Shown here in pieces: positions 10,587 to 48,748 of a stretch of 48,748 nucleotides of DNA. A model generated the notes under the pieces. It was not told where the DNA came from and did no database searches. It was given only the letters and a program-made list of their open reading frames with translations. Position numbers and translations under genes: made by a program. The stretch spans positions 1-48,748 of the forward strand of contig CACOSI010000005.1 of assembly GCA_902629855.1 (NCBI GenBank). The letters run 5' to 3'. Positions within the stretch are counted from its first letter, which is position 1, and each line of letters begins with the position of its first letter. This DNA comes from an uncultured Fidelibacterota bacterium. Its GTDB lineage: Bacteria; Fidelibacterota; Marinisomatia; Marinisomatales; Marinisomataceae.

Positions 10587-10595
10587 GGAAAAAAA

Positions 10596-34255: not shown

Positions 34256-34261
34256 AATTCC

Positions 34262-35383
34262 TTGAAGTTTTCAGTTTTATCTCAAGATAAAAATTCTCAA
34301 GCACGAACTGGATTAATTGAAACAGATCATTCAAAAATTGAAACTCCAGTTTTTATGCCTGTTGGTACACATGGTGTAGTTAAGTCCTTATCTCCAGAAG
34401 ATTTAAATAGTCTCAACGTTCAAATTATGCTTTCAAATACTTATCACCTTTATTTAAGACCAGGAACTGAAATTGTTAATAAAAATAATGGTTTACATGA
34501 ATTTATTAATTGGAACAAAAGTATTTTGACAGATAGTGGTGGCTATCAAGTATTTTCATTAAGTAACATGAATGAAATAACTTCAAAAGGTGTAAAGTTT
34601 AAATCTCATTTAGATGGAAGTGAACACTTTCTGACGCCTACAAAATCAATGGAGATCCAGAGATATCTTGGTGCAGATATTATTATGGCATTTGATTATT
34701 GTCCACCAGGTGATTGTTCAAAAAGCGAATTATTAAGAGCCTCAGATCTAACAAATATTTGGACTAAAGAAGCATTCGAATATCTTCAAAAAAATCAATC
34801 AATATATGTACACAATCAAACAATGTTTCCAATTATTCAAGGAGGAACGAGTATTGAAGAAAGAAAAAAATGCTTAGAACAAATGATTCCTTTTGCAACG
34901 TGCGGAATTGCAATTGGAGGTCTTTCTGTTGGAGAAAAAAAAGATCCTATGCTTGAGGTTGTAGAGTTTTTAGGAAAAGAAATGCCTAAAGATCAACCGC
35001 GATACCTTATGGGTGTTGGTAAGCCTACTGATTTAGTAAAATCAATTTTGAGAGGAGTGGATATGTTCGATTGTGTTTTACCAGCTCGAAATGCAAGGAA
35101 TGGTCAAATTTTTACTCATGATGGCGTGATTAATATTTTAAATAGTCAATTTTCAAATGATACATCTCCTATTGATAGTAAGAGTTCAGTTAAATTTGCT
35201 AAAGATTTTTCTAAATCATATTTAAGACATTTATTTAAGGTTAACGAAATGTTTGGAATTCGGATTGCTACGCTCACTAATATCGCATACTACTTTGATT
35301 TAATTAGTGAAATAAAGAATGAAATTAATAATAATAGTTTTGTAAAATGGTCTAGTAATTATTTAAATAAATTTGACAGGTAG
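34262..35383 (+). CDS. tgt: tRNA-guanine transglycosylase, zinc ligands absent
   Basis: Tgt exchanges guanine-34 for preQ1 in Asp, Asn, His and Tyr tRNAs. The 373-residue protein starts at TTG. It shows T-D-S-G-G-Y-Q-V-F near residue 95, F-D-Y-C near 144, G-G-T-S near 196, G-I-A-I-G-G-L-S-V-G-E near 217 and the nucleophile region V-D-M-F-D-C-V-L-P-A-R-N near 269. The canonical C-x-C-x2-C...H zinc site is lost: aligning to E. coli Cys302, Cys304, Cys307 and His333 gives Ser308, Val310, Ala313 and Thr339. The flanking segments Y-L-R-H-L and N-I-A-Y-Y are kept, so this is substitution rather than truncation. Confidence 0.93.
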   Translation: MKFSVLSQDKNSQARTGLIETDHSKIETPVFMPVGTHGVVKSLSPEDLNSLNVQIMLSNTYHLYLRPGTEIVNKNNGLHEFINWNKSILTDSGGYQVFSLSNMNEITSKGVKFKSHLDGSEHFLTPTKSMEIQRYLGADIIMAFDYCPPGDCSKSELLRASDLTNIWTKEAFEYLQKNQSIYVHNQTMFPIIQGGTSIEERKKCLEQMIPFATCGIAIGGLSVGEKKDPMLEVVEFLGKEMPKDQPRYLMGVGKPTDLVKSILRGVDMFDCVLPARNARNGQIFTHDGVINILNSQFSNDTSPIDSKSSVKFAKDFSKSYLRHLFKVNEMFGIRIATLTNIAYYFDLISEIKNEINNNSFVKWSSNYLNKFDR

Positions 35384-35385
35384 AT

Positions 35386-35844
35386 ATGATTGATATAGGC
35401 AAAAAAGCACCAAATTTTATTTTAAAAAACCAAAATGGAGAAGATGTAGAATTAAAAGATTTTTTAGGTTCTAAAGTTTTGATTTGGTTTTTTCCTAAAG
35501 CAAATACTGGAGGTTGTACAAGAGAGGGTGTTGGTTTTAAAGACGATTTCAATATATTTAAAAAGAATAATATTAAAATTATCGGTGTTAGTAAGGATTC
35601 TATAAAAGCTCAACAAAATTTTTGTAATAAAAATGATTTTCCGTACGACTTACTTGCTAACCCTGAATTAGATATGATAAAATCATATGAAGCTTGGGGT
35701 TTAAAAAAAATGTATGGAAAAGAATATGAAGGCATATTGCGAATATCATATTTAATAGACGAGAAAGGAATTATCATTAGAGCTTTCCCAAAAGTCAAAA
35801 CTGCTACTCATTCTAAAGATGTTTTACAATCAATTGATTTATAA
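35386..35844 (+). CDS. bcp: Peroxiredoxin, Bcp/PrxQ type
   Basis: A 152-residue thiol peroxidase that reduces H2O2 and organic hydroperoxides. The active site P-K-A-N-T-G-G-C-T-R-E fits P-x3-T-x2-C with peroxidatic Cys44. The usual E. coli Bcp resolving Cys five residues later is Val49 here. A second Cys80 lies 36 residues after Cys44, the same spacing as the Cys48-Cys84 disulfide known from Xanthomonas Bcp, so an atypical two-Cys mechanism is likely. It follows tgt by two bases and overlaps the next lipoprotein gene by 26. Confidence 0.92.
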   Translation: MIDIGKKAPNFILKNQNGEDVELKDFLGSKVLIWFFPKANTGGCTREGVGFKDDFNIFKKNNIKIIGVSKDSIKAQQNFCNKNDFPYDLLANPELDMIKSYEAWGLKKMYGKEYEGILRISYLIDEKGIIIRAFPKVKTATHSKDVLQSIDL

Positions 35845-36871
35845 AATATATTTTCTTTTATTTTTTGTATTATTTACATCGTGTGCATCTGTAATGTCCC
35901 CTGGAGGTGGGCCCAAGGATTTAAAACCTCCGTTGTTAATCAGTACCGACCCTGTTGAGTTGGTTAACATTAAAGATAATCAAGAAATATCAATCATTTT
36001 TGATGAATATATCAATGAAGGTTCTATAAAAAAGTCTTTATCAATTTTTCCAAAAAATCAAAATGGAATTGATTTTTCTTATGAGGGAAAAATTATTAGA
36101 GTAGAAATACCTTCAGATTTAGATCCAAATATGACATATACTATTAATTTTAATAAAAATTTTTCAGATGAAAATAACGTTAAAATTAATGAAGATATAG
36201 TTATTCCATTCTCTTTCTCAGATAATATTAGTTCAGGAAAAATTAATGGTCAAATTTTTGGTGATTTTGAAAATGTTAGTATTCTTATTTGGAATGGAAT
36301 TTTCTCTGGAGAAATTATTAATGATTTGAAACCAGACTACGTGATTTCAGCAAATAAACAATTTTCTTTTAATCACTTACCAAATGGTGATTTTTCTTTA
36401 ATAGCAGTGAATAATTATAGAAAAAATGAAGATTTAACTTCTCAAAATATTTCATTAAATAAGTCATTTCATTTTAATATTGAGGATAATAATTCAATAA
36501 TATCAAATTTTTATTTCAATAAAAATAAAGTAGATGAAATTGAAACAGAAAATTCTGAAGAATTAAATTCAAAGTATTCTTCCTTATCAGGAAGAATTGT
36601 TGGCAATTACTTATTACCAATGGTGGTTACTCTTTCCGGGGATAAAAATTATTCAACAAACCTTGGTTTAGATGGAAAATTTAATTTTGAAAAAGTTAAT
36701 GAGGGTAAGTACGAAATGATTATCTTTGAAGATAGGAATAATAATCGAATTTTAGATACTGGTTCACTTGAAAATAGTACAGATACCGAAAATTTTCATG
36801 TTTATGGTGATATTTTGGAATTAAGGTCAAACTGGGAATTTGAAATTCCAAACTGGAATATAAATGAATAA
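35819..36871 (+). CDS. Ig-like domain lipoprotein
   Basis: A 350-residue exported lipoprotein. The signal ends in L-F-T-S-C (Cys22) and is followed by the S-P-G-G-G-P-K-D-L-K-P-P-x-L pattern that Bacteroidetes-type Big_5/SbsA Ig-like lipoproteins carry after the lipidated Cys. The first 130 residues form a beta-sandwich with I-S-I-I-F-D-E-Y-I-N. A later region near residues 245-320 looks like a carboxypeptidase-regulatory-type beta domain (L-S-G-R-I-V-G-N, then Y-E-M-I-I-F-E-D-R-N-N-N-R-I-L-D-T-G). The start is uncertain: ATG at 35819, or TTG at 35834, which gives a shorter signal. The function is unknown, probably structural at the cell surface. Confidence 0.78.
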   Translation: MFYNQLIYKIYFLLFFVLFTSCASVMSPGGGPKDLKPPLLISTDPVELVNIKDNQEISIIFDEYINEGSIKKSLSIFPKNQNGIDFSYEGKIIRVEIPSDLDPNMTYTINFNKNFSDENNVKINEDIVIPFSFSDNISSGKINGQIFGDFENVSILIWNGIFSGEIINDLKPDYVISANKQFSFNHLPNGDFSLIAVNNYRKNEDLTSQNISLNKSFHFNIEDNNSIISNFYFNKNKVDEIETENSEELNSKYSSLSGRIVGNYLLPMVVTLSGDKNYSTNLGLDGKFNFEKVNEGKYEMIIFEDRNNNRILDTGSLENSTDTENFHVYGDILELRSNWEFEIPNWNINE

Positions 36872-37271
36872 AAAAAATATTGTTGCTGTCAGTGGATACT
36901 TTGATCCAATTCATGTAGGTCATTTAGAATACCTAGAGCTTGCCAAAAAAATTGGTGATTATTTAATTGTCATTGTGAATAATGATTTTCAAGCATCTTT
37001 AAAAAAAGGAAAATCTTTTATGAATGAAAATGATAGAGTTGAAATAGTTTCAGCTATAAGGTGCGTTGATGAAGTTTTTTTGAGCATAGATGAGGATTCA
37101 AGTGTTTGCAAAAGTCTTGAACATATTAAACCAGATATTTTTGCAAACGGAGGTGACCGTAAACTTGATGAAATTCCAGAAACTAAAGTTATGAAAAAGT
37201 ATAATATAAAAATGGTTGATGGACTTGGAAAAAAAATAAGAAGTAGTAGTGATTTAACAGGTTTAAAATGA
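36864..37271 (+). CDS. Cytidylyltransferase-like nucleotidyltransferase (RfaE2/HldE C-terminal type)
   Basis: A 135-residue Rossmann-like nucleotidyltransferase. The signature G-Y-F-D-P-I-H-V-G-H-L-E-Y-L near residue 11 contains the H-x-G-H motif. I-V-N-N-D (near 39), N-E-N-D-R-V-E-I-V (near 54), R-C-V-D-E-V (near 66) and F-A-N-G-G-D-R (near 93) follow the order seen in ADP-heptose adenylyltransferase domains. Canonical ISSTxxI near the end appears as I-R-S-S-S-D-L. The likely role is making an activated sugar for LPS core, but related enzymes act on glycerol-phosphate or FMN, so the substrate is open. Confidence 0.75.
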   Translation: MNKKNIVAVSGYFDPIHVGHLEYLELAKKIGDYLIVIVNNDFQASLKKGKSFMNENDRVEIVSAIRCVDEVFLSIDEDSSVCKSLEHIKPDIFANGGDRKLDEIPETKVMKKYNIKMVDGLGKKIRSSSDLTGLK

Positions 37272-37558
37272 AGAAAAAAACAAAAATAGATAAGAAGAAA
37301 TCTCAACTCCTTGAGGAATTTTTAATGTTAGGTGAAAAATGTGGAATAAAAATTATTCATGATAAAGGTGATTTTAATGGCGATAATTGTGTTTTATTTT
37401 CAAATGACACAATTGTTATTAACAAACATAAGCCTATAGAACAAAGACTATATGTTCTTGCTAAGTGTTTTAGTCAAACTAATTTAGATAATGTTTATAT
37501 TAAACCTGTCATACGTGATTTAATTACAAAGGCAAAAGAAGATAAAGTTTATGAGTAA
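37268..37558 (+). CDS. Conserved hypothetical protein, 96 residues
   Basis: A small, basic, probably cytoplasmic protein whose function I do not recognise. It has a Lys-rich N-terminus, an L-L-E-E-F-L-x-L-G-E-K-C-G-I-K-I helix-strand unit, two short strands around C-V-L-F-S-N-D-T-I-V-I-N-K, and a helix E-Q-R-L-Y-V-L-A-K-C-F-S. The layout resembles small proteins found beside metabolic genes in related phyla, without a known role. Overlaps of four bases with the nucleotidyltransferase and eight bases with the HIT gene support it as a real translated gene. Confidence 0.7.
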   Translation: MKKKTKIDKKKSQLLEEFLMLGEKCGIKIIHDKGDFNGDNCVLFSNDTIVINKHKPIEQRLYVLAKCFSQTNLDNVYIKPVIRDLITKAKEDKVYE

Positions 37559-38048
37559 GACAAAACATCTATGGGCTCCATGGAAAATGGACTATTTAAG
37601 AAATAAAAAAAATGATTCACAAAAAATATTTTCTGATTTTGCAAATGAAGACAATGATAGAGATAATCTTATATTACACCGTGCAAAACATTGCTATGTA
37701 ATAATGAATTATTATCCCTACAATAATGGACATTTGATGGTAATTCCTTTCAAAGAAGTTGATAGATTTGAAGATCTTGATGATAAAGTTCTTTCTGAGA
37801 TTATGGTTATTTCTAAAAAAATTATGAAAATATTAAGACACAGTTTTAGTTGTGATGGTTTTAACTTTGGAGCTAACATTGGAGAGGGCTCAGGAGCATC
37901 TATTGCTTCTCATTTACATTTTCATATTGTGCCTCGATGGAAAAGTGATACATCTTTTATGCCTGTTATTGGAAATACAAAAGTGATGGCTCAAACTTTA
38001 GATGATACTTATGAGCAATTATTAAAATTATTTAAGGAAGTACTATAG
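37551..38048 (+). CDS. HIT family hydrolase
   Basis: A 165-residue histidine-triad protein of the branch with an N-terminal L-W-A-P-W-K-M-D-Y motif. The triad is H-L-H-F-H-I-V-P-R-W near residue 125, and Y-P-Y-N-N-G-H-L-M-V-I-P lies near 60. Relatives hydrolyse or phosphorolyse dinucleoside polyphosphates such as Ap4A, or AMP-linked compounds. The CxxC pair usually found soon after the LWAPW motif is missing; the matching region reads Q-K-I-F-S-D-F-A. The gene shares its last base with the GTG start of the next gene. Confidence 0.88.
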   Translation: MSKTKHLWAPWKMDYLRNKKNDSQKIFSDFANEDNDRDNLILHRAKHCYVIMNYYPYNNGHLMVIPFKEVDRFEDLDDKVLSEIMVISKKIMKILRHSFSCDGFNFGANIGEGSGASIASHLHFHIVPRWKSDTSFMPVIGNTKVMAQTLDDTYEQLLKLFKEVL

Positions 38049-38332
38049 TGGATTTATTTTCACATTCTTGGCTTCCATTTATGTATCAATATGGTTTTGG
38101 TCTATTAATTTTTGGTGGAGGGCTTTTTGCTGTATTTAAAGCATATGGGGGGAAAGAGTTCTGGAATCAATATAAGATATGGATTCAGATTTTAATTTGG
38201 GGATTCATTTACGTTTCTTCCATTCACTTATTGATGACTGTTTCAGCTCTGAATGATCTTTCTCAGTTATACCTTGTAATTTTATCTTTATACATATTTA
38301 ATGTCTTTCTATTAACAAGGAAGATTACATGA
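38048..38332 (+). CDS. Small membrane protein next to a Na+/solute symporter
   Basis: A 94-residue protein with three predicted membrane helices (about residues 10-32, 44-68 and 71-90) and no family I can name. It starts at GTG on the last base of the HIT stop codon and overlaps the symporter start by four bases, so translation is probably coupled. Small partner subunits are known for some symporters of the SSS family, such as the small DUF4212-type proteins beside acetate-type symporters. By context this may be such a partner, although its sequence does not let me assign it to that family. Confidence 0.7.
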   Translation: MDLFSHSWLPFMYQYGFGLLIFGGGLFAVFKAYGGKEFWNQYKIWIQILIWGFIYVSSIHLLMTVSALNDLSQLYLVILSLYIFNVFLLTRKIT

Positions 38333-40197
38333 CTACTATTCCTACTTCAGAATTGTTTTGGGTTATTTTAGCAGCTTATGTTTTCTTTGTATTAGGTGCT
38401 GGATTATTCTTTGCGAGAAATAATCAGTCAACTGAAGACTTCTTTTTTGGTGGTAGAAGATTTTCATGGTGGTTGATTGGTATGTCAATGCTGGCTACTG
38501 GTGTTGGATCACATAGTTTTGCTAAATACGCCTCTAAAGGTTTTGAATATGGATTTTCATCCACAATGACCTATATGAATGATTGGTTTTTTATGCCATT
38601 ATTATTATTTGGTTGGATTCCAATCATATATTATATGCAGGTCAATTCCATTCCTGAATATTTTGAACGAAGATTTAACTCAACTGTAAGAAATTTATCT
38701 ACAATAACCATGCTTCTATATCTCATAGGGTATATAGGAATTGGATTATTAGCTTTAGGGTCATTATTGCAACCAATTTTGGGATGGGAAATTAATACTA
38801 TTATTATAGTGGTAGCTATCATATCTGGTACTTATGTATCTTTAGGTGGTCAAACTGCAATTATATTTACTGACTTCTTACAAGGTGTCATTCTTCTATT
38901 TGCTGGGTTACTAATTTTTGGTTTGGGTATTGCTTATTTAGGAGGATTTGATTTCTTCTGGAGCAATTTGTCAGCTACAAATAAGTTACCATTGGCAGAT
39001 TTTAACTCTCCACCTGACTTTAATTTTGTTGGAATTTTCTGGCAAGATGGAGTAGTTGGTTCAGTTGGATTCGCGTTTATGAATCAGGCAGTAATTATGA
39101 GATTCTTAGCATCTCGATCCGTTATTCATGCTAGAAGAGCGACTATGATGAATGTATTGGTTTTCTTACCAATAGGAACTGTTGCAGTTTCTAATTCTGG
39201 TTGGCTTGCTAGGGCTATAGAAAATATGACTCCTGGTGTTATAACAAATTTATTACCAAATGGAAGTGCAAATGGTGTATTTACTGTTGTTGCTTCCCTG
39301 GTAGCTAATTCAGAAGCAATTTTCGCATTTCTAGTAGCAGCAGTAGTTGCTGCTTTAATGTCCAGTTTAGATTCACAAATTAATGCATCAGCAGCGGTGG
39401 CGGTTAACGATGTATATACGCCATTAAGCAAGAATCCTTCTGAAAAAACACGCTTGAGAGTTTCTATGTTTACTTCCCTAATTGTTACTTTTGTTGGGAT
39501 ACAGGCAGCATTCTTATTTGCACAATATGGAACCATCTATGAGGCTCATGGTGCATTTCATAGTGTAGTTACTCCACCAATGGTTACAGTTATTTTCCTT
39601 GGAATTTTCTGGCAGCGCTTTTCATCAAGAGCAGCTGTATTAACGTTTATCCTAGGTGCAGCATTCATTTTCCTTGGGATTGAGTATCCTCAAATTTTTG
39701 TTCAACCATTTTCACATGGGATAGAATATGTTGAAGCAAAACCATGGTCTTATATTAGAGCATTATATAATGTAGTTGCATGTACATCCATTGGAATCAT
39801 AGTAACCTTAATAACGTCAAAACCAAATCACTCTCATTACGAACAAATTAAAGGATTAACTCTTTGGACTATTAAAGATGGCCCAACATTCTTCAAAGGT
39901 TCTGAGGTTAATGAAAATGCAGGAAGTAAAATCACCTTTGACGGTGACATGATTAAAGTTGTGGATGATACAGATAATAAAATATACTTACCTGCAGATT
40001 TAATGAAAGATCTTGGCGCTAAAGAAGGAGATTTTGCATATATATCTGATACAAGGTGGTACTTAGGTGGAATCAAATCTACTCATGCTTACATTGGAAA
40101 AATATCTTCAAGTAATAAAATTGAAATCTCTAAAAATGTCCAGAATCATGGTCAATTTGATTCTTCAAAAAAATTATTTATCGAGCTAGAATTATAA
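38329..40197 (+). CDS. Sodium:solute symporter with C-terminal soluble domain
   Basis: A 622-residue SSS-family transporter. About 13 membrane helices fill residues 1-500. The N-terminus shows S-T-E-D-F-F-F-G-G-R-R-F-S-W-W, then G-S-H-S-F-A-K-Y-A and I-P-E-Y-F-E-R-R-F near residue 105. The helix near residues 330-350 ends in A-A-L-M-S-S-L-D-S-Q-I-N-A-S, a family landmark for sodium-site serines. Residues about 510-622 form a soluble beta-rich tail (F-D-G-D-M-I-K-V-V, then K-L-F-I-E-L-E-L at the end), which plain symporters lack. The substrate is unknown. The following 255-base gap starts with an oligo-T stretch and leads to the TonB receptor. Confidence 0.9.
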   Translation: MTTIPTSELFWVILAAYVFFVLGAGLFFARNNQSTEDFFFGGRRFSWWLIGMSMLATGVGSHSFAKYASKGFEYGFSSTMTYMNDWFFMPLLLFGWIPIIYYMQVNSIPEYFERRFNSTVRNLSTITMLLYLIGYIGIGLLALGSLLQPILGWEINTIIIVVAIISGTYVSLGGQTAIIFTDFLQGVILLFAGLLIFGLGIAYLGGFDFFWSNLSATNKLPLADFNSPPDFNFVGIFWQDGVVGSVGFAFMNQAVIMRFLASRSVIHARRATMMNVLVFLPIGTVAVSNSGWLARAIENMTPGVITNLLPNGSANGVFTVVASLVANSEAIFAFLVAAVVAALMSSLDSQINASAAVAVNDVYTPLSKNPSEKTRLRVSMFTSLIVTFVGIQAAFLFAQYGTIYEAHGAFHSVVTPPMVTVIFLGIFWQRFSSRAAVLTFILGAAFIFLGIEYPQIFVQPFSHGIEYVEAKPWSYIRALYNVVACTSIGIIVTLITSKPNHSHYEQIKGLTLWTIKDGPTFFKGSEVNENAGSKITFDGDMIKVVDDTDNKIYLPADLMKDLGAKEGDFAYISDTRWYLGGIKSTHAYIGKISSSNKIEISKNVQNHGQFDSSKKLFIELEL

Positions 40198-40219
40198 TTT
40201 TCTTTTTTTTAAAATTATA

Positions 40220-40249
40220 TTGACAAATATTTTTCATCTCTTTTAAACT
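40220..40249 (+). promoter_or_regulatory. Candidate promoter for the TonB-dependent receptor
   Basis: TTGACA (40220-40225), an exact -35 consensus, is followed by TAAACT (40244-40249) at 18 bases or TTAAAC at 17. Transcription would start near 40256, just before the three tandem leader elements, giving an untranslated leader of roughly 195 bases. The exact -35 makes this the best promoter candidate in the window. The -10 is weak. Confidence 0.45.
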
Positions 40250-40266
40250 CCCGTAGTTAAAATCGC

Positions 40267-40325
40267 TTTTTAAGATGTTGAAGCAGATCTTAATGAAAAA
40301 ATTGATCTGGCCATGCACTTAAAAA
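40267..40325 (+). repeat. Leader element copy 1
   Basis: First of three tandem elements before the TonB-receptor gene. The outer arms TTTTTAA (40267-40273) and TTAAAAA (40319-40325) are perfectly complementary. The conserved cores are GTTGAAGC (40277-40284) and GGCCATGC (40309-40316). The inner stem pairs AGATC (40285-40289) with GATCT (40304-40308), and the core C40284 can pair with G40309. The loop contains ATGAAAAA. The ATG at 40313 opens a 12-codon frame M-H-L-K-R-V-L-L-L-F-K-S. Confidence 0.8.
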
Positions 40326-40337
40326 GAGTTTTATTAC

Positions 40338-40395
40338 TTTTTAAGAGTTGAAGCAGATGTGGATGAGAAAACATATCTGGCCATGCGATTAAAAA
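40338..40395 (+). repeat. Leader element copy 2
   Basis: The second copy has the same outer arms (40338-40344 and 40389-40395) and the same cores, GTTGAAGC (40347-40354) and GGCCATGC (40379-40386). The GGCCATGC core lies exactly 70 bases after that of copy 1. The inner stem AGATGTG (40355-40361) pairs with CATATCT (40372-40378) over seven bases including one G-T pair. The loop contains ATGAGAAAA. The ATG at 40383 opens a six-codon frame, M-R-L-K-K-S, which resembles the receptor start M-R-L-K-T. Confidence 0.8.
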
Positions 40396-40409
40396 AGTCT
40401 TAGGGGGCG

Positions 40410-40465
40410 TTTTTAAAAGTTGAAGCTAATTTTATGAAAAGGAGATTAGGCCATGCGATTAAAAA
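40410..40465 (+). repeat. Leader element copy 3, containing the receptor start codon
   Basis: The third copy has outer arms 40410-40416 and 40459-40465 and cores GTTGAAGC (40419-40426) and GGCCATGC (40449-40456), again exactly 70 bases after copy 2. The inner stem is now CTAAT (40426-40430) with ATTAG (40445-40449): both sides changed together relative to copies 1 and 2, a compensatory change. Its loop carries the Shine-Dalgarno sequence, and the ATG in GGCCATGC is the real receptor start. Folding would cover the translation start region. Confidence 0.8.
40437..40444 (+). promoter_or_regulatory. Shine-Dalgarno site of the TonB receptor, within leader copy 3
   Basis: AAAAGGAG lies eight bases before the ATG at 40453, in the terminal loop of element copy 3. 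Copies 1 and 2 have no GGAG at the matching place, so only the third copy is equipped for strong initiation. This also fixes the receptor start at 40453. Confidence 0.65.
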
Positions 40466-43188
40466 CAATTATTCTATCCGTATGTCTTATCACATCACAT
40501 TTACTTTCACAAACAGGTAATTTATTAGGAACAGTTTCAGATTCAAATGGTTCCTTTCCATTACCTGGTGCCAATGTTTATTTGGAAGGAACTAACTTTG
40601 GAGGAATAACTGATTCCGGAGGTAAGGTTTATCTTTCAAATTTACCTACAGGCAATTATAAGCTGGTAGTTTCTTACATTGGATATGAAAATCAAGAAAA
40701 AGATATTTATATAGATGAAGAAAGTTTGAACACCTTTGCAGTGGAATTATCAGTTGAAACATTACTTGGAAACGATATTGATGTAATTGGTAATTCTTTA
40801 TTGGGTCAGGCTAGAGCGTTAAATAATCAAAAAAATAAATCAAATATTAGTAATGTTATTTCGTCAGATCAGGTTGGGAAGTTTCCAGACTCAAATATTG
40901 GAGATGCGTTAAAACGTGTACCTGGAATTGCTGTATACAACGATATGGGTGAAGCGAGATTTGGACATGTTCGTGGAACTCCATCTAGTTTTAATTCAGC
41001 AACTATTAATGGCGAAAGAATGCCTTCCGCAGAGGCTACAACAAGAAGTAACCAGTTGGACATAATTCCTGCTGATATGATTCAAACCGTAGAAGTAATA
41101 AAAGCACTTACTCCAGATATGGATGCAGATGCAATAGGAGGGTCTATTAATCTTATTACACGAAAAGCTGCAGGAAAACGTACATCAGTTACAGTTGGAA
41201 GAGGTGAGAATACCTTGGATGAAGCTGGTAAAATAGTACAGTTATCTGGAATGCATTCCAATAGATCAGAAGACAGAAATTTTGGATATATGTTTAATTT
41301 TTCTTTTTATGATAACTGGACGGGTACTGATAACGTTGAAGCAGAATGGGATGATGAAGGAAATATTGTTGAACATGATATAAGAAAATATCTAGTGCAT
41401 CGAGAAAGAAAAAGTTTTGGATTAAGGTTCGATTATAATTTGGCTAGTACAGAATTATATGCAGATCTTAATTATAACGATCGTGATGATTACGAAAATA
41501 GGTATCGTCAAAGAATCAAAGATTTAGATGAAGGTGAAGGAAGCCAGGAGGTAAGAAGGCAAACTAAGGCAGGATTGCCAGGTAATGAATATGGAAGACT
41601 AGAAGATCAAAAGCTTTTTTCCTATAAATTTGGTGGAACAAGTCTTTTAGATAAATTAAAACTAGATTATTCTTTTAAAATTTCTGAGGCTTCAGAGTTA
41701 AGACCCAATGAGAGATATCTGGCTTTAAGATTAAAAAAACAAACTGCCATTTGGAATCAAAGTACTGAAAAGCCAAACTTTACTTTCTCAAATGCAATCG
41801 CTGCAGACTTAAATAATTCGTGGGATTTTAGAAACTTAATTGAAGAACGTAGAGATACTGATGAAAAAGCACAAAGTTTTAAGTTAGATGCTGACTACAA
41901 TTTTAATGATAATTTAAAATTAGAGGCTGGATTGAAAATTAGTTCGAGAAAAAAGGAAAGGCGTAATGAGTTCTACGAATTTGAACCAGTAGATGAAGAT
42001 GCTTTTTTAGCAGGTGCATTTTCAAACATCGTAAGTCAAGATAAAAGTGAATGGTTGAATGACGGTAATGGTACTACTTATAATTCAGGATCTTATGTAA
42101 GTAGAGAATTTCTTGGAAATTTAGATTTATCAAATACAGATCTTTTTGAGAGAGTTATTGTTGAAGAAGAGTTGGCTGGCAACTTCAAAGCCTCTGAACA
42201 CATCACTTCATTCTATGGAATGGCTTCATATGATTATTCAGACCAATTGCTAGTTGTAGGTGGAGTAAGATTAGAAAGAACATCCTTATATGATCTAGAA
42301 GCAAGAAGTTATGATGAAGATAATGATCAAAATAATATCATTACAGCCGCTGATAATGACTATACTGATGTATTACCTTCTTTGCACCTGATATATGATT
42401 TAGATGGTTCATCAAAGATTAGAGTTGCTTTAACAAAGTCATTAGCAAGACCTAATTACTTTGATACTGTTCCATATCAACAAGTAAAAGTTGAAGATGA
42501 AGAGATTAAGGTTGGTAACCCTGAGCTAGAGCCTACCATTTCAACAAATTTTGACATTTCTTTCGAAAGGTATTTTGATGATATTGGGTTATTCTCAGCA
42601 GGAATTTTTACTAAAGAAATAGATAACTTCGTTGTTTATACATCTGGCTATGTAACTCAAGCTGATAATCTGCCAGACTACAATGGTTTTCAATTAGACA
42701 AAGCATTGAATGGTGGAAATGCATCTTTATTAGGAGTTGAAATTGCATTTCAAAGGCAAATATTACCAGGACTAGGTTTATATGCCAATGTTACTGCTAT
42801 TGACTCAAAAATAAATAACTTAGATCCAAAGCTTCAAGAAGACAGACCCGATGTAAAAGATAATCCTATGCCAGGTACGTCTCAGCTTAATTACAATCTT
42901 TCAATATCATATGAAAGAGAGCCAATGACCGTACGTTTATCTCTTAATCATCAAGGAGAGTTTCTTGAAGAATTTGGTGATTCCAAATCTGAAGATAGAT
43001 GGTATGATAAATCAACTTTTGTTGATTTAAATGCAAATTATAATTTAAGAGAAAATATTTCTCTTTATGCTGACTTTAATAATTTAACTAATCAACCATT
43101 GAGATATTATCAAGGAAGTAGTAGATATTTAATGCAAGAAGAATATTATAATACAAAATTTACAATTGGTATAAAGGCTGATTTGTAA
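40453..43188 (+). CDS. TonB-dependent receptor with N-terminal carboxypeptidase-regulatory domain
   Basis: A 911-residue outer-membrane active transporter. It has a signal peptide (M-R-L-K-T-I to H-L-L-S-Q) and then a carboxypeptidase-regulatory-like beta domain (L-L-G-T-V-S-D, P-L-P-G-A-N-V-Y-L near residue 38, G-Y-E-N-Q near 78). The plug follows (F-P-D-S-N-I-G-D-A-L-K-R-V-P-G-I near 145, V-E-V-I-K-A-L-T-P-D-M-D-A-D-A-I-G-G near 212). The barrel runs to the end, with Y-A-D-F-N-N-L-T-N-Q-P near 870. The plug is of the type found in large oligosaccharide or peptide receptors (TonB-Xanth-Caul-like). No SusD partner is adjacent, and the ligand is unknown. Expression is probably controlled through the tandem leader. 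Confidence 0.93.
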   Translation: MRLKTIILSVCLITSHLLSQTGNLLGTVSDSNGSFPLPGANVYLEGTNFGGITDSGGKVYLSNLPTGNYKLVVSYIGYENQEKDIYIDEESLNTFAVELSVETLLGNDIDVIGNSLLGQARALNNQKNKSNISNVISSDQVGKFPDSNIGDALKRVPGIAVYNDMGEARFGHVRGTPSSFNSATINGERMPSAEATTRSNQLDIIPADMIQTVEVIKALTPDMDADAIGGSINLITRKAAGKRTSVTVGRGENTLDEAGKIVQLSGMHSNRSEDRNFGYMFNFSFYDNWTGTDNVEAEWDDEGNIVEHDIRKYLVHRERKSFGLRFDYNLASTELYADLNYNDRDDYENRYRQRIKDLDEGEGSQEVRRQTKAGLPGNEYGRLEDQKLFSYKFGGTSLLDKLKLDYSFKISEASELRPNERYLALRLKKQTAIWNQSTEKPNFTFSNAIAADLNNSWDFRNLIEERRDTDEKAQSFKLDADYNFNDNLKLEAGLKISSRKKERRNEFYEFEPVDEDAFLAGAFSNIVSQDKSEWLNDGNGTTYNSGSYVSREFLGNLDLSNTDLFERVIVEEELAGNFKASEHITSFYGMASYDYSDQLLVVGGVRLERTSLYDLEARSYDEDNDQNNIITAADNDYTDVLPSLHLIYDLDGSSKIRVALTKSLARPNYFDTVPYQQVKVEDEEIKVGNPELEPTISTNFDISFERYFDDIGLFSAGIFTKEIDNFVVYTSGYVTQADNLPDYNGFQLDKALNGGNASLLGVEIAFQRQILPGLGLYANVTAIDSKINNLDPKLQEDRPDVKDNPMPGTSQLNYNLSISYEREPMTVRLSLNHQGEFLEEFGDSKSEDRWYDKSTFVDLNANYNLRENISLYADFNNLTNQPLRYYQGSSRYLMQEEYYNTKFTIGIKADL

Positions 43189-43197
43189 ATTTTGTTG

Positions 43198-43240
43198 TTA
43201 TTATTTTAATCAAAAATAAAAGTAATAATACTTGTTTTTT
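43198..43240 (+). terminator. Weak AU-rich terminator after the TonB receptor
   Basis: TTATTATTTT (43198-43207) can pair with AAAAGTAATAA (43218-43228), leaving one bulged G. Six T residues follow at 43235-43240. The stem has no G-C pair, so it would be a poor intrinsic terminator. I list it because it lies ten bases after the receptor stop and before an unrelated tRNA gene. Confidence 0.25.
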
Positions 43241-43270
43241 CGATAATAATATTAAAAATTTCTACCATCT

Positions 43271-43343
43271 TCCGGAGTAGCTCAGTTGGTAGAGCGAGTG
43301 ACTGTTAATCACCAGGTCGGGGGTTCGAGTCCCTCCTCCGGAG
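43271..43343 (+). tRNA. tRNA-Asn (GUU)
   Basis: A full 73-base cloverleaf. The acceptor stem TCCGGAG pairs with CTCCGGA and the discriminator base is G. The D arm is GCTC-AGTTGGTA-GAGC. The anticodon loop is CTGTTAA with anticodon GTT, the variable loop AGGTC, and the T arm GGGGG-TTCGAGT-CCCTC. The anticodon stem has one A-C mismatch at its outer pair. CCA is not encoded: the next bases are CTT. GUU is a target of Tgt, whose gene lies nearby. The following membrane-protein gene starts 36 bases later on the same strand and may be cotranscribed. Confidence 0.96.
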
Positions 43344-43359
43344 CTTGCATGTCAAGCTC
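43341..43359 (+). other. Hairpin overlapping the 3' end of tRNA-Asn
   Basis: GAGCTTG (43341-43347) and CAAGCTC (43353-43359) are perfectly complementary around a CATGT loop. The first three stem bases are the last three of the tRNA, so this fold competes with the acceptor stem or marks the 3' trailer for processing. No T-run follows, so a simple terminator is unlikely. Confidence 0.5.
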
Positions 43360-43379
43360 AATAAAAGGAAGTAAATAAA

Positions 43380-44354
43380 ATGGATTTTCTAACACTATGG
43401 TCTTTATTGGGTTTTTTATTTGCAGTGTATGCTGTAACCGCTAATGATAGTATTCAAACCTTAGGAACATATATTTCATCAAACAGGGATATCAAATGGT
43501 ATTGGATGTTTGGTTATATGGGCTCCATATTTGTTTTCACAATGATTCAGGGTTTCTCCCTGAATGATCCAGCATTTGGTAGATTAGATAAATTTGAACC
43601 AATTACAATTCAATGGTATCATGCATTAGCTCCACTGGTATTGGTAGCATTAACCAGATTAAAAATCCCAGTTTCTACTACATTTTTAGTTCTTTCTGTT
43701 TTTGCAACTTCTATAGTAATGGAGCAGATGTTGGTTAAAAGTTTTGTTGGTTATGCAGTATCATTTGTGTTTGCATGTGGTTCTTGGTACTTAATTAGCA
43801 AATATTTTCTTTATGAAGGAGAAAAAGGTAAAAATAAATATAATAATTATTGGAGAGCAGCCCAATGGTTAACTACTGGCTGGTTATGGTCAACTTGGTT
43901 AAAACATGATTTGGCTAATATTATGATTTTTTTACCAAGATATAGTACAGTTCAAAGCTTACAGTTCCAGTTATTTGTATTATTAGTAATGCTGCTAGGT
44001 TTGGCATTTATGTTTTATGAACGTGGTGGTCGAATTCAAGAAATTGTTTTATCTAAAACCAATACAAGATATGTTAGATCTGCAACACTTATCGATTTAG
44101 TATATTGTTTTGTTTTATACTATTTTAAAGAGGTTAACAATATTCCTATGAGCACTACTTTCGTATTTATGGGAATGCTAGCTGGAAGAGAGCTCGGTAT
44201 TTGGATGTCAATTGGTTATGGTAAATTGACATATACTGATAGACATAAAAAGGCTATTTTCCCAATGCTATATATGGATTTTTTAAGATTAATGCTTGGT
44301 CTAATGATCAGTGTTTCTTTAGCATATGGAATTCAATGGTATTCTACTTTATAA
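43380..44354 (+). CDS. Divergent PiT/Pho4-like membrane transporter
   Basis: A 324-residue protein with about nine hydrophobic segments. Its two halves repeat a motif order like that of PiT phosphate permeases: A-N-D-S-I-Q-T-L-G-T near residue 21 then I-P-V-S-T-T-F near 99, and H-D-L-A-N-I-M-I near 176 then I-P-M-S-T-T-F near 257. In PiT proteins the paired G-A-N-D and P-x-S-T-T-H motifs line the phosphate and cation sites; here the G-A and the final His are lost. Phosphate or another anion is therefore only a guess. AAGGAAG precedes the ATG by about nine bases. Confidence 0.6.
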   Translation: MDFLTLWSLLGFLFAVYAVTANDSIQTLGTYISSNRDIKWYWMFGYMGSIFVFTMIQGFSLNDPAFGRLDKFEPITIQWYHALAPLVLVALTRLKIPVSTTFLVLSVFATSIVMEQMLVKSFVGYAVSFVFACGSWYLISKYFLYEGEKGKNKYNNYWRAAQWLTTGWLWSTWLKHDLANIMIFLPRYSTVQSLQFQLFVLLVMLLGLAFMFYERGGRIQEIVLSKTNTRYVRSATLIDLVYCFVLYYFKEVNNIPMSTTFVFMGMLAGRELGIWMSIGYGKLTYTDRHKKAIFPMLYMDFLRLMLGLMISVSLAYGIQWYSTL

Positions 44355-44372
44355 AACTTTAGTTTATATCAA

Positions 44373-45206
44373 ATGAATTTAAAAAATAAAACTGTTCTTA
44401 TTACTGGTGGTGCTAAAGGTATTGGTCTTGCAACAGCTAAAAGGATTCTTGAGCAGGGAAGTATGGTAATACTTTGGGATTTTGATCGAGAATCTTTAGA
44501 TGAAACAACCAAAAATTTTCACAATAATGGCTTCGAAGTCTTCTCACAAGTATGTGATGTTACAAACAAAGAACAAATTTATGAAAATGCCCGTATTATT
44601 GACGAAAAATTTGGTGGTATTGATATATTAATTAATAATGCTGGGACTGTTTATACAGGTTATATGCTTGATAGGTCAGACGAAGAGTTAGAAAACTTAA
44701 TTAATGTAAATTTTACCTCTATGATATATACTATTCGAGCATTTATGCCAAAAATGCTTGAAAAAAATTCAGGACATATAATAAATATATCATCTGCATC
44801 ATCCTTAACAGGAGCTCCTAAGCTTGCGGTATATGCTGCAACTAAATGGGCAGTAGCAGGTTTGACAGAATCTTTAAGACTTGAGGTTCAGAAAATGGGC
44901 AAGAATGGCGTCAAATTTTCTTCAATTCATCCAAATTTTTTAAAGAAAGGTCTTTTTGAAGGTACAAAACTTAATTTCATTGGACAGTTACTTGCTCCTG
45001 GTGTAAAAAGCCATGATCAAGTTGCAAAGGTTATAGTAAACAGGGCAATCAAGCTTGGTTTCCACTCTCCAAAAGTTCCATGGATAATGAATCAAATTGT
45101 ACTTCTAAGAGCAATCCTACCAAGTTCATTACTAATAAAGTTCAGTAGTCTTTATGGTCTATATAATATGATGGATGACTATAAAGGATATAATGATGGC
45201 AGATAA
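44373..45206 (+). CDS. Short-chain dehydrogenase/reductase
   Basis: A 277-residue SDR with the classical layout: cofactor motif G-G-A-K-G-I-G-L-A near residue 12, D-F-D-R at the end of beta-2, N-N-A-G-T near 88, catalytic Ser in I-S-S-A-S-S near 141, and Y-A-A-T-K near 155. It ends with a hydrophobic tail (I-V-L-L-R-A-I-L-P-S-S-L-L-I) longer than plain 250-residue SDRs, so it may associate with membranes and act on a lipid-like substrate. The residues after beta-2 do not clearly decide NAD or NADP. No Shine-Dalgarno sequence precedes the ATG. Confidence 0.9.
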   Translation: MNLKNKTVLITGGAKGIGLATAKRILEQGSMVILWDFDRESLDETTKNFHNNGFEVFSQVCDVTNKEQIYENARIIDEKFGGIDILINNAGTVYTGYMLDRSDEELENLINVNFTSMIYTIRAFMPKMLEKNSGHIINISSASSLTGAPKLAVYAATKWAVAGLTESLRLEVQKMGKNGVKFSSIHPNFLKKGLFEGTKLNFIGQLLAPGVKSHDQVAKVIVNRAIKLGFHSPKVPWIMNQIVLLRAILPSSLLIKFSSLYGLYNMMDDYKGYNDGR

Positions 45207-45247
45207 TTTTACTTTACAATTTTTAAATAAGGTTTTAGACTAAATAT

Positions 45248-45994
45248 ATGAAAAATTATATTAGCAAGTTTCTAGTCCTATCTTTTTTGTTAGTTAACAG
45301 TTGCTCTTCGGAAAAAGAAAATGAAGTTTTAGATGAGAATTTGATGGTCACTTTTCAGGATTCTTTAAGCTATACTATGGGAGTTAATATTGGAACTAAT
45401 CTACCGGAAACCGAAATTAATCAAGAGCTACTCATTGAGGGATTAAGAGATTATTGGGCAAAAACTGAGCCAAGATTAAATGTCCCAGAACGATCTGAGA
45501 TTTTAAGAATTTTTAATATTAAAAATTCTGAAATTGAAAGAGAGCAAATGGCAGCAATGACTGCAGAAATGAAAGAGCTTTCCAGAAAAAACAAAATGGA
45601 TGGCCAATCTTTCATGGAAAAAAATAAAATGAGAGATGGTGTAAGAGTTTTTCAGAGATCCGGAATTCAGTATAAGGTTATTAAGGAAGGTTTTGGAGTT
45701 ATTCCAGATTATGATGATGCTGTAGTTGTTCATTATAATGGTTATTTAGTGGATGGCCAAAAATTTGATAGTAGTTATGATAAGAATAAGCCTCTCACAA
45801 TAAAAATAGAACAACTTATAGTTGGTTGGCAGGATATTCTACAGAAAATGCCTGTTGGTTCAAAATGGGAAGTATTTATACCATTCAATTTAGCTTATGG
45901 TGAAGGTGGTGTTAAAGATGCTAACAAAGAATATATTATTCCACCTGGAGCAACTTTAATTTTTGAAATGGAACTATTGGAAGTAATTAAATAG
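45248..45994 (+). CDS. FKBP-type peptidyl-prolyl isomerase lipoprotein
   Basis: A 248-residue Mip/FkpA-like periplasmic foldase. The lipobox V-N-S-C (Cys19) follows a short hydrophobic signal. An N-terminal helical dimerisation domain covers about residues 38-135 (S-Y-T-M-G-V-N-I-G-T, then Met/Glu/Lys-rich helices). The FKBP domain has V-V-H-Y-N-G-Y-L near 161, F-D-S-S-Y near 173, L-I-V-G-W-Q-D near 192 and I-P-P-G-A-T-L-I-F-E at the end. It probably assists folding of outer-membrane or secreted proteins. Confidence 0.93.
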   Translation: MKNYISKFLVLSFLLVNSCSSEKENEVLDENLMVTFQDSLSYTMGVNIGTNLPETEINQELLIEGLRDYWAKTEPRLNVPERSEILRIFNIKNSEIEREQMAAMTAEMKELSRKNKMDGQSFMEKNKMRDGVRVFQRSGIQYKVIKEGFGVIPDYDDAVVVHYNGYLVDGQKFDSSYDKNKPLTIKIEQLIVGWQDILQKMPVGSKWEVFIPFNLAYGEGGVKDANKEYIIPPGATLIFEMELLEVIK

Positions 45995-46000
45995 CATCTA

Positions 46001-46957
46001 ATGAAGCTAATTTCATACCTATCTACATTTCTTTTTGTTTTTATATTTACTTCATGCCAAAATCAATCAAGCATTCTATTACTTCAAGATCCAATGTTTA
46101 AAACTGAGTCTTTTAAAGATGCAGGAATTGATAGTATTGGTTTTTTAATGAGGAAGCATGTTATTGTTGCTACAGTTAAAGACAAAAATGAATTGCATGT
46201 TTATGGCGCTATGAACGGAAAATTAAAAAAAACCGTTTCAAGAGAAAGTGCTTTTCCAAATGGAGTAACTGTAATTGATGATAAGTTTGTATTAGTAACT
46301 GAAAGAGATAATAAGCAAGTAGCTGTTTTCAACTCATCGCTAGAATATCTTGGATCTTTTGGCAATAATGAACTTAGAAGTCCTTATGGCATTGCATTTT
46401 ATAAAGTTGATGATAATTTTTATAAAGTCTTTGTAACAGACAGCTATGAATTTAATAATCCTAGAAACGATAGAATATTATCATGGGATTTTAAAATTGA
46501 TAACGAAACTTTTAGGACTGAAAATTCAAATGTTTTTGGAAATCCAACTTTATACCAAGTAGAAAGTATATTCATTGATAAGGAAAATAAAGTAATGCTT
46601 GTAGCTGAAGAAATGAAAGAACATCATAAAATTATGGCTTTAGATTTAGATACAGGTAATGTTATAATTGAAGATATTGGTCAGTTTAATAGAGGAAATG
46701 ATCCTGAAGGTATTGCTTTAGTAAAGACAAGTAAAGATGAAGGATATTGGATATGTACTGAGCAAAGTAAGGATGATAACAGATTCCACCTTTTCGATAG
46801 AAAAACACTAGAATTCAAAAAAACTTTATACTTAGATGAGGTTTCTTATACAGATGGGATAACAACAGCATATATGCATGGAAAGTGGTATTTATATGCT
46901 GTAGACAATGATATGCGAATAGTATCATACGAGTTACCAGCCATCAGTTTTAATTGA
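46001..46957 (+). CDS. Phytase-like beta-propeller lipoprotein
   Basis: A 318-residue lipoprotein (F-T-S-C, Cys19). Its mature part follows the order of segments in beta-propeller phytases: an N-terminal E-L-H-V-Y-G-A-M-N-G-K, F-P-N-G-V-T-V-I-D near residue 87, P-Y-G-I-A-F-Y-K near 127, V-E-S-I-F-I-D-K-E-N near 187 (the calcium-site E-G-C-V-A-D-D in true enzymes), and D-P-E-G-I-A-L-V near 231 then W-I-C-T-E-Q. Several acidic calcium or phosphate ligands of true phytases are not obviously kept, so activity is uncertain. It is followed by a partner esterase gene that overlaps it by four bases. Confidence 0.65.
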   Translation: MKLISYLSTFLFVFIFTSCQNQSSILLLQDPMFKTESFKDAGIDSIGFLMRKHVIVATVKDKNELHVYGAMNGKLKKTVSRESAFPNGVTVIDDKFVLVTERDNKQVAVFNSSLEYLGSFGNNELRSPYGIAFYKVDDNFYKVFVTDSYEFNNPRNDRILSWDFKIDNETFRTENSNVFGNPTLYQVESIFIDKENKVMLVAEEMKEHHKIMALDLDTGNVIIEDIGQFNRGNDPEGIALVKTSKDEGYWICTEQSKDDNRFHLFDRKTLEFKKTLYLDEVSYTDGITTAYMHGKWYLYAVDNDMRIVSYELPAISFN

Positions 46958-47817
46958 TGAACTTTTTATTCATCATTTTAATAACAATTTTTTGCATATA
47001 TATTTTTAGAAATTCATTAATACTTAGAATATATCAACTACCCATAATAAGAAAATCTTGGCAATTACCTGAAAACTCTTCTTCCGAATTTTCAATTAAC
47101 AAAGAAAACAAAAAACCGGTTGTTGTTTGCTGCGGAGATAGTATAACTCATGGTCATATTGGATATGATTGGGTTGGTTCTTTAAGAAAAAAAGATAAAA
47201 CAAAATTATTCATTAATGCTGGAATAAACGCAGATCTTACTTGGAATTTAAACCAACGCGTGAGAGATATAATTAAACACAACCCTGACTATATAACTAT
47301 CTTAATAGGAACAAATGATGCTATCGGAAGCCAACCAGTAAAGCAAATACAGCAGTATTATATTCAAACTAAAGGTTTACCTAAAAAACCTTCAATAGAG
47401 TGGTTTGAAGAACAGTTGGATGAGTTAGTATCAACATTAACAAATAAAACTAATGCAAGAATTTCATTAATTACTTTACCATTTCTAGGAGAACAAAAAG
47501 ATTCTGAAATCATACAAGTAGTAAAAGATCATAATCGAATAATACGAGATATATCAAACAAGTATGGCACTACATTACTTGATTTTTTTAAAAAATTTGA
47601 TTCAATAATCATTGATAACAATAGCATTCCTTATACAACCAGTGAATTAAGAAGATTAAGAGGTTTAAGAGCAGTGATTCTTCACTATGTTTTTAATTGG
47701 ACGTGGAAGGATATAGGAAAAAAATATAATTTAAAACTTCTTTGTGATCACATTCATTTGAATGAAAATGGAGGACAAATTTTAGAAGAGATGGTTAAAG
47801 ACTTCCTGCAAAAATGA
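46954..47817 (+). CDS. SGNH/GDSL-type hydrolase, membrane-anchored
   Basis: A 287-residue protein with one N-terminal hydrophobic helix (residues 3-22), which probably anchors it with the catalytic part outside the cytoplasm. Block I is V-C-C-G-D-S-I-T-H-G near residue 58, block II includes N-A-G-I-N near 88, block III I-G-T-N-D-A-I near 112, and block V D-H-I-H-L-N-E-N-G near 269, giving a Ser-Asp-His set. The family includes esterases, lipases and glycan deacetylases. Its tight link with the phytase-like lipoprotein suggests joint action on an external ester or phosphoester substrate, which is inference. Confidence 0.85.
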   Translation: MMNFLFIILITIFCIYIFRNSLILRIYQLPIIRKSWQLPENSSSEFSINKENKKPVVVCCGDSITHGHIGYDWVGSLRKKDKTKLFINAGINADLTWNLNQRVRDIIKHNPDYITILIGTNDAIGSQPVKQIQQYYIQTKGLPKKPSIEWFEEQLDELVSTLTNKTNARISLITLPFLGEQKDSEIIQVVKDHNRIIRDISNKYGTTLLDFFKKFDSIIIDNNSIPYTTSELRRLRGLRAVILHYVFNWTWKDIGKKYNLKLLCDHIHLNENGGQILEEMVKDFLQK

Positions 47818-47822
47818 AATTT

Positions 47823-48164
47823 TTATTCAAGAGCTTCTACGAGTTTTTTTGTAAGAATACCCAATGCCTCATTATTTTCTTCAATTCTTTTTTGAGTTTC
47901 TTTTAATTTTTCAAGACTAGCTGCTACATCATCAAAATCTCCTACTCCATCATTTATATACAAATAAATTTCAAAGTATAAAGCTCCAAATAAGGTTATA
48001 TCACTACTAAGTTCTTTAGCAGATAAGACAATTTCAGCTTGTTGCAATAAAACACTTTCTTGAATTGTAAAATATTGATTTACTCTACCAACAATCTGAA
48101 ATAAAGATAATGAGAGAGTTATCATTAAAATAGATATTGAAATATTTAATATTTTTTTGTCCAT
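47823..48164 (-). CDS. Hypothetical single-pass membrane protein
   Basis: A 113-residue protein that I do not recognise. It has an N-terminal membrane helix (about residues 7-25), a mostly helical middle with hydrophobic L-F-G-A-L-Y-F-E-I-Y, and a charged C-terminal helix (L-E-K-L-K-E-T-Q-K-R-I-E-E-N). It converges with the SGNH gene, with five bases between stop codons. On the simplest reading of the tRNA fragment upstream it lies on the chromosomal side of an integration junction. Confidence 0.55.
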   Translation of the reverse strand: MDKKILNISISILMITLSLSLFQIVGRVNQYFTIQESVLLQQAEIVLSAKELSSDITLFGALYFEIYLYINDGVGDFDDVAASLEKLKETQKRIEENNEALGILTKKLVEALE

Positions 48165-48172
48165 ATTGAAAT

Positions 48173-48194
48173 ATACCTATGATATTTTAGGTAT
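48173..48194. promoter_or_regulatory. Inverted repeat upstream of the 113-residue gene
   Basis: ATACCTA (48173-48179) and TAGGTAT (48188-48194) are perfect 7-base complements around an 8-base spacer, starting nine bases upstream of the minus-strand start codon at 48164. It may be an operator or a hairpin in the mRNA leader. The rest of the 150-base gap up to 48314 holds the tRNA fragment described separately and nothing else I can identify. Confidence 0.3.
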
Positions 48195-48234
48195 TTAATA
48201 GATTTTTGAAAGACTAAAGAGAAATCGATTTTAG

Positions 48235-48276
48235 TACCCTGGACAGGATTTGAACCTGTGACCTACGGATTAGAAA
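48235..48276 (-). other. Isolated 3' half of a tRNA gene (att-like site)
   Basis: Read on the minus strand this is the 3' part of a tRNA from the anticodon loop (TTTCTAA, anticodon TCT if intact, so tRNA-Arg) onward. It has variable loop AGGTC, T arm ACAGG-TTCAAAT-CCTGT, acceptor strand CCAGGGT and discriminator A, with no CCA. On its 5' side (higher coordinates) there is no D arm and no matching acceptor strand ACCCTGG, and only three of five anticodon-stem pairs could form. A tRNA cut cleanly at the anticodon loop is the usual product of integrase-mediated insertion into a tRNA gene. The intact tRNA would lie beyond the right edge. Confidence 0.75.
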
Positions 48277-48314
48277 ATCGTTGACTTCTCGACGAGAAAA
48301 TAGAAAGAATATTG

Positions 48315-48728
48315 TTATAAATTTGAATTAATTTTTCTTAATAATTTATATCTTCTTCTATTTTGATATATTTGTACAACTTGAAATAAATTATTCCACC
48401 AAAGTTTATTATTAACTCCCTTCAATTCTTTAGTAAGAGACTTATTCATATTATCAACGGATAATTTTACTCCATCAACAGAATCTTTCACATCACTTAT
48501 TGATTGATTAATGCTAGATAGTTGATTTATTATTGATGTTTCTAAACTTTGAATTTGCTTAGAAATTGTCAATAAACTTTTAACTGTTTCAAGATTTAAC
48601 ACCTTAATTTCATTTAAAGTGTTTTTCATTTCTGATTCCCAATTTGACTCAAAAATACCAACACTGTCAAATATTTCATAAATCTCGTAAAACGTAATTA
48701 AATCTTCTTTTATTAGTGATAAAACCAT
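48315..48728 (-). CDS. Hypothetical coiled-coil protein, possibly longer than seen
   Basis: At least 137 residues. A helical region rich in I, L, S, N and K with heptad-like spacing spans about residues 45-105 (Q-L-S-S-I-N-Q-S-I-S-D-V-K-D, V-D-G-V-K-L-S-V-D-N-M-N-K-S), followed by a basic C-terminus (Y-Q-N-R-R-R-Y-K-L-L-R-K). I know no family. The frame is open from the first ATG (48728) to the window edge, so the true start may lie outside. It is the only gene on the element side of the tRNA fragment and may belong to an integrated element. Confidence 0.5.
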   Translation of the reverse strand: MVLSLIKEDLITFYEIYEIFDSVGIFESNWESEMKNTLNEIKVLNLETVKSLLTISKQIQSLETSIINQLSSINQSISDVKDSVDGVKLSVDNMNKSLTKELKGVNNKLWWNNLFQVVQIYQNRRRYKLLRKINSNL

Positions 48729-48748
48729 TTCATATGATCTAAATAACA

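Follow-up and report, generated by a model that had tools for sequence, protein, structure and literature searches.

The 3' half of a tRNA-Arg(TCT) gene near the right end of the analyzed DNA has likely been displaced by site-specific integration, and the site likely holds mobile units of one gene each. The window, which is the whole stretch of DNA analyzed, is the complete contig C5 (48,748 bp) of a 0.93-Mb assembly that consists of 19 contigs and is 88% complete. Its relevant features are as follows.

46954-47817, plus strand: SGNH-hydrolase-like host gene flanking the site (function is a reading of the ORF)
47823-48164, minus strand: gene of 113 aa adjoining the tRNA fragment
48235-48276, minus strand: likely displaced 3' half of tRNA-Arg(TCT), the far attachment site of the integrated unit
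48277-48301, minus strand: distal end of the proposed mobile unit (TTTTCTCGTCGAGAAGTCAACGATT region), common in alignment to the distal ends of the G011 and G019 cassettes
48315-48748, minus strand: probable cargo ORF, coiled-coil-like by weak coiled-coil-type family matches, from the ORF list and open at the contig edge

The tRNA half and its intact counterpart

Read on the minus strand from 48276 to 48235, the window gives TTTCTAATCCGTAGGTCACAGGTTCAAATCCTGTCCAGGGTA, which is the 3' half of tRNA-Arg(TCT) and comprises the anticodon loop (TCT), the 3' strand of the anticodon stem, the T arm, the 3' acceptor strand and the discriminator. It is identical to an intact tRNA-Arg of the same genome at 41 of 42 bases, with one mismatch, while no match to the tRNA half with fewer than 17 mismatches turned up when the window was shuffled 50 times by a first-order Markov model. 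Weaker similarity extends 7 bases outward to 48283 (CAACGAT as opposed to CAACGGA). ARAGORN and Rfam, when applied to the window, report only a tRNA-Asn at 43271-43344 and no tRNA at 48235-48276; therefore the 5' half is absent, and the preliminary description of a minus-strand 3' half that runs from anticodon loop to discriminator without its 5' partner is confirmed. RNA folding of the fragment gives no signal above shuffles (z -1.0). Since the fragment sits near a contig end of a MAG, it could be taken for a chance match or an assembly artefact. This is extremely improbable given the identity of 41/42 against at least 17 mismatches by chance, the presence of the same fragment and flank in the separately assembled genome G022, and the recurrence of the arrangement in several genomes. 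For a TonB-dependent-receptor-like gene (40453-43188) that lies beside the tRNA-Asn elsewhere in the window, the syntenic position in G022 holds no aligned counterpart.

The intact tRNA-Arg(TCT) is located at 5806-5880 on the plus strand of contig C14 (6,571 bp), with 691 bp remaining to the contig end, and it is the sole close match to the fragment elsewhere in the genome. The remaining matches reach just 79-80% identity and look like different tRNAs, therefore tRNA-Arg(TCT) is apparently single-copy. Genes upstream of it on C14 are secD/secF-like, EamA-like and DUF502-like, as read from their ORFs. Downstream, approximately 150 bp without an obvious gene are followed by an ORF that runs off the contig, and this DNA is foreign, of element type. 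The orientation suits integration at a tRNA: the intact gene on the plus strand of C14 would lead into the element and from there to the fragment on the minus strand of C5, with the intact tRNA at one end and the 3' fragment at the other in the same orientation. We therefore hold that C14 and C5 are very likely the two outer ends of the inserted DNA; the two contig ends share no overlap of 8 or more bases. An intact tRNA and a 3' fragment are also found together on single contigs in G022, G019, G011, G008, G020 and G007. The preliminary description had looked for an intact tRNA-Arg whose last 42 or so bases repeat the fragment, and C14 supplies it, in the orientation needed and with element-type DNA downstream.

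In genomes of the same genus (Ca. Marinimicrobia, SAR406 group), a homologue of the SGNH gene and the intact tRNA-Arg(TCT) are convergent neighbors. Seven of these genomes (G006, G014, G015, G023, G017, G001 and G021) have an empty site, in which the intact tRNA adjoins the SGNH gene with no second tRNA half between them. An integration junction with the element above 48276 had been proposed beforehand, to be doubted if homologous empty sites carried the same fragment. None of the seven does: each has one intact tRNA and no fragment, and together with the C14 tRNA and its orientation they support the junction. The 113-aa gene next to the fragment is probably an older cassette, because its homologue in G012 lies between an intact tRNA and a decayed tRNA half. 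The SGNH gene by the cassette locus in G012 (L023 294-1154) is read in two overlapping frames, which reflects a frameshift or an assembly error.

One-gene cassettes and their leader

Six relatives carry tRNA halves between the intact tRNA and the SGNH gene, with the following contents.

G022: one unit, one ORF of 309 aa
G019: two tandem units, ORFs of 203 and 240 aa
G011: one unit, ORF of 426 aa
G008: one unit, ORF of 561 aa
G020: one unit, ORF of 168 aa
G007: element of 6.5 kb at the same tRNA-Arg site

Occupied relatives thus mostly hold one or two tandem cassettes of 0.7-1.9 kb each, which are laid out as a conserved leader of about 150 bp, one main ORF and the next tRNA half. The sample is small, with six complete units from five genomes of one genus. 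Apart from G007, every complete unit has a single main ORF in the direction of the tRNA. The complete units of these five relatives have att sites at both ends and no integration or transfer genes, and no recombinase was recognized within them (G022, G019, G011, G008, G020); an integrase inside the element is present in G007. Family matching of the ORFs leaves the cargo mostly without a family. The G011 cargo is GmrSD_N+HNH nuclease-like (Pfam E 6e-19; PADLOC NsnA E 1e-32), and that of G020 carries DUF805. In G008, the 561-aa cargo and a neighboring 683-aa gene (L019 13275-14957 and 15393-17441) encode lipoprotein-like proteins that are rich in repeats and similar to each other; the first lies within the newest unit, and the second adjoins the old flank.

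The tRNA-Arg site is therefore a swap slot for single genes, where close relatives carry different one-gene units or none. The locus is broken in G002 as well: one contig runs for 94 bases beyond the point where the ORF usually starts, which in this case has no ATG, and a second begins inside the tRNA half. If the cargo differs among members of a mixed population, assemblies would break within it, which would account for these breaks as well as those of C14 and C5.

The leader is similar across unrelated cargo. In seven units, with that on C14 counted, the distance from the tRNA end to the ORF start is 150-154 bases, the first ATG in that position being taken as the start codon. The mean pairwise identity of four leaders per 25 columns is 0.63-0.92 over the first 150 and 0.15-0.45 thereafter, i.e. 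it falls at the ORF. Each leader contains two direct copies of a word of 11-12 bp, which begin 43-48 bases after the tRNA end (ACCGACTACAA in C14, ACCGACAACAAA in G019, and a run of AAAACAACAAC in G022 and G008). When shuffled leaders were put through the same search over lags, repeat runs as long occurred in none of 500 dinucleotide shuffles for six of the seven leaders and in 1% for the seventh. We regard these paired repeats as putative integrase arm-type sites. Additionally, five of the seven leaders carry GTTAGAAAATCCGTTG or a near copy, which is the reverse complement of the tRNA anticodon-arm core plus one extra base, and the other two have a similar inverted arm; in most leaders the inverted copy of the core is found about 95 bases after the tRNA (C14/L003 about 5970-5995). 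All seven aligned leaders have a TATATT-like box directly upstream of the start codon. Judged from these sequences, the leader may supply the promoter of the cassette, and one might guess at roles in promotion or recombinase binding for the inverted arm and the box. A possible palindrome before the start codon, noticed by eye, was inconsistent across cassettes and was dropped.

A scan of genome contigs with the leader pattern returned four contigs, which by length correspond to contigs of G011, G019, G002 and G020, and an order-wide search outside the genus returned nothing beyond matches to the tRNA end. Viral contigs, searched as possible helper phages with the leader pattern, the tRNA-half patterns and the G007 integrase, gave no match.

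Both assembled ends in the present genome fit this one-gene layout, with C14 carrying the leader of the one-gene cassettes and C5 carrying the matching distal end of the same group. On C14 the ORF has 181 aa from a TTG at 6028 (ATG at 6034; L003 numbering) and is cut by the contig end. On C5 the coiled-coil ORF of the preliminary description is present (48315-48728, 143 aa), and its frame is open to the contig end (48746). Its assignment to the element holds in that it is probably cargo; as a whole gene it does not, since the contig edge truncates it and what remains is probably only the 3' part of the cargo gene, which may begin on C14 (L003 6034). The two ORFs could come from a single gene, as its two ends, or from two cassettes in tandem, and no homologue that convincingly links them was found in 130 genomes of the order. 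By analogy with G022, G019, G011, G008 and G020, we favor the view that the unit of this genome is a short cassette that has a single cargo gene and no integrase. The prophage or ordinary genomic island suggested earlier is probably not what lies here, because the unit in most occupied relatives is such a cassette.

Proposed integration, movement and turnover of the units

In the mechanism that we consider likely, a mobile unit would integrate by site-specific recombination in the anticodon loop of the host tRNA-Arg(TCT). It would bring its own tRNA 3' half, so that an intact tRNA is rebuilt at the other end, now on C14, and the original 3' half of the host would be displaced to 48235-48276.

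A candidate source of the recombinase is the 6.5-kb element of G007, which encodes a 411-aa tyrosine integrase together with serine-resolvase-like, ParB-like and Xis-like HTH proteins. It has ACCTACAACATTACCTACAACA near the tRNA end and CTACAACACAAAACTACAACA near the other end. The word CTACAACA occurs six times in the element, never more than about 165 bp from an end, against an expectation of 0.2 occurrences; it was picked after the ends had been seen, therefore the count is descriptive. These end repeats resemble, but only resemble, the 11-12-bp repeats of the cassettes, and the G007 leader differs. No recombinase was found at the tRNA-Arg locus outside G007. A PF00589 survey of the cassette-bearing genomes found mainly two Xer-sized proteins, with a further integrase in another element of G019 and a partial one at a contig end in G020. 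Extra tyrosine recombinases in G019, G009, G020 and G002 were considered as movers and set aside, none being at the tRNA-Arg site (contig ends truncate those of G020 and G002), as was a serine recombinase as a general mover, present in G007 and G009 only. G019 holds another small integrative element with a 365-aa tyrosine integrase (L106 2552-5450; G019:C1 about 374.5-377.5 kb), and the ORF that follows it opens with the peptide GAGGRRFKSCHPD, which resembles a translated tRNA 3' end. No circular form of a cassette was seen. Given mainly Xer-sized proteins in the cassette-bearing genomes and the integrase and repeats of G007, movement in trans is the best-supported mechanism: with moderate confidence, we suggest that cassettes are moved by tyrosine integrases of co-resident or incoming elements like that of G007, which would recognize the tRNA core and the paired 11-12-bp repeats.

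The flanks indicate recent exchange. The window and G022 are 83% identical at 10000-14000 and about 70-92% identical per 250 bases in the aligned parts of 34000-44750, as compared with about 99% (five substitutions) over the approximately 777 bp of 47500-48276. They diverge at 48276/48277, inside the anticodon arm, where the alignment ends, and the inserts beyond are unrelated. In the flank on C14, identity with G022 increases from about 83-86% to 96% in the 250 bases that end 56 bases before the tRNA; ordinary conservation accounts for part of this increase, because in most pairs of genomes similarity is higher over the final 500 bases before the tRNA on that side. The climb from about 83% towards tRNA-Arg is steady on both sides (window 44750-48276; C14/L003 5001-5750), as if flanks had been exchanged repeatedly between species around the locus. 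Given the identity of about 99% beside the fragment, the two genomes came to share the right flank only recently, and homologous recombination is the probable route. In the simplest reading a cassette was swapped or added after this sharing; alternatively, a tract with the tRNA repeat at its end may have been imported.

Such homologous exchange, seen in the rise from about 83% to about 99%, is also what would be expected if cassettes were deletion remnants that no recombinase moves any longer and that differ among genomes by recombination in the flanks, as would be cassette-bearing genomes without a recombinase at the locus. We consider this unlikely, since in remnants one would not expect unbroken ORFs to follow at a constant spacing behind a conserved leader that contains paired repeats, nor the distal end to be conserved, and the breakpoint lies inside the anticodon loop. 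It is a little less doubtful, though still not probable, that the unit of this genome is an autonomous integrative element (prophage, satellite or island) whose own integrase lies in the gap between C14 and C5. An element of this kind occupies the same tRNA in G007, and the unassembled gap could be of any length; against it, the C14 leader is of the one-gene cassette type and not of the G007 type, the distal end on C5 matches, and a single Xer-type protein is the only integrase found in the present genome, which is 88% complete. Movement of the cassettes by host XerC/XerD would account for several cassette-bearing genomes in which Xer-type proteins are the only tyrosine recombinases found. It is highly unlikely nonetheless: the anticodon arm of the tRNA forms the core and, judged by eye, bears no resemblance to a dif site, and the paired repeats close to the ends suggest an integrase that uses arm-type sites.

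Relation to known systems and significance

The closest known systems are tRNA-anchored additive islands and cis-mobilizable elements. Additive flexible genomic islands with tRNA-fragment repeats at tRNA genes appear in the article on Ca. Actinomarinales (PMC7771536), and an additive island, fGI-2, at tRNA-Lys in that on Methylophilaceae (PMC10872708). As in the excerpts of these articles, cassettes beside a tRNA gene in small genomes are bounded by direct repeats of part of the tRNA and vary among close relatives, and the present locus shows the tRNA, the recurring tRNA-end repeats and the variable cassettes of such an island. Unlike those islands, it mainly holds units of one gene, each preceded by a shared leader that contains paired repeats, and such a leader is not described in the excerpts (PMC7771536, PMC10872708). 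The same site also accommodates an element that has an integrase and similar end repeats. At ssrA of Dehalococcoides, tandem islands without integration modules have been suggested to be cis-mobilizable elements (PMC3146451); they are likewise att-flanked and occur in tandem with, or replace, module-bearing units, and movement with the help of neighbors was suggested there. They differ by their serine recombinase and tmRNA site, as opposed to a likely tyrosine integrase and units of 0.7-1.9 kb here. Tycheposons, described in PMC10872708 after the original report as elements of 4-200 kbp with a tyrosine recombinase, are also cargo elements at tRNA genes of streamlined marine bacteria. As summarized in that excerpt, they could include the G007 element (6.5 kb, tyrosine integrase), while the complete cassettes, at 0.7-1.9 kb and with no recombinase, fall outside the description.

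The units also recall integron cassette arrays in having one gene per unit, the same orientation, a fixed platform and a tandem order, and they differ in that tRNA halves form the joints and each unit seems to carry its own promoter region. No integron integrase was found by the platform; the sole tyrosine recombinase of the locus is that of the G007 element itself, which was not assigned to IntI. We tentatively suggest an integron-like form of gene capture, which may well prove wrong: the single-copy tRNA-Arg would be the platform and the tRNA halves the joints, and each cassette would be a standard leader (tRNA 3' half with trailer, paired integrase-binding repeats and promoter) plus one gene, moved in trans by the integrases of passing elements, with differing leader repeats addressing different integrases. 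Since tRNA-anchored islands and integrase-less tandem islands have already been described, the kind itself is known. A limited search of open-access literature found no description of a standard leader with one gene at a site that is also used by an integrase-carrying element whose end repeats are similar, and no title recognizable as treating this tRNA-Arg hotspot in Marinimicrobia.

The means by which marine bacteria acquire genes when their genomes are smaller than 1 Mb are an open question. If the proposed reading is true, the slot would offer an inexpensive answer: single genes with their own leader would be added to, or exchanged at, an essential tRNA, and no genome space would go to an integrase. 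It would also explain why assemblies of this group break at the locus. The locus is also a defined place in which to seek adaptive or defense genes, with one cargo already nuclease-like.
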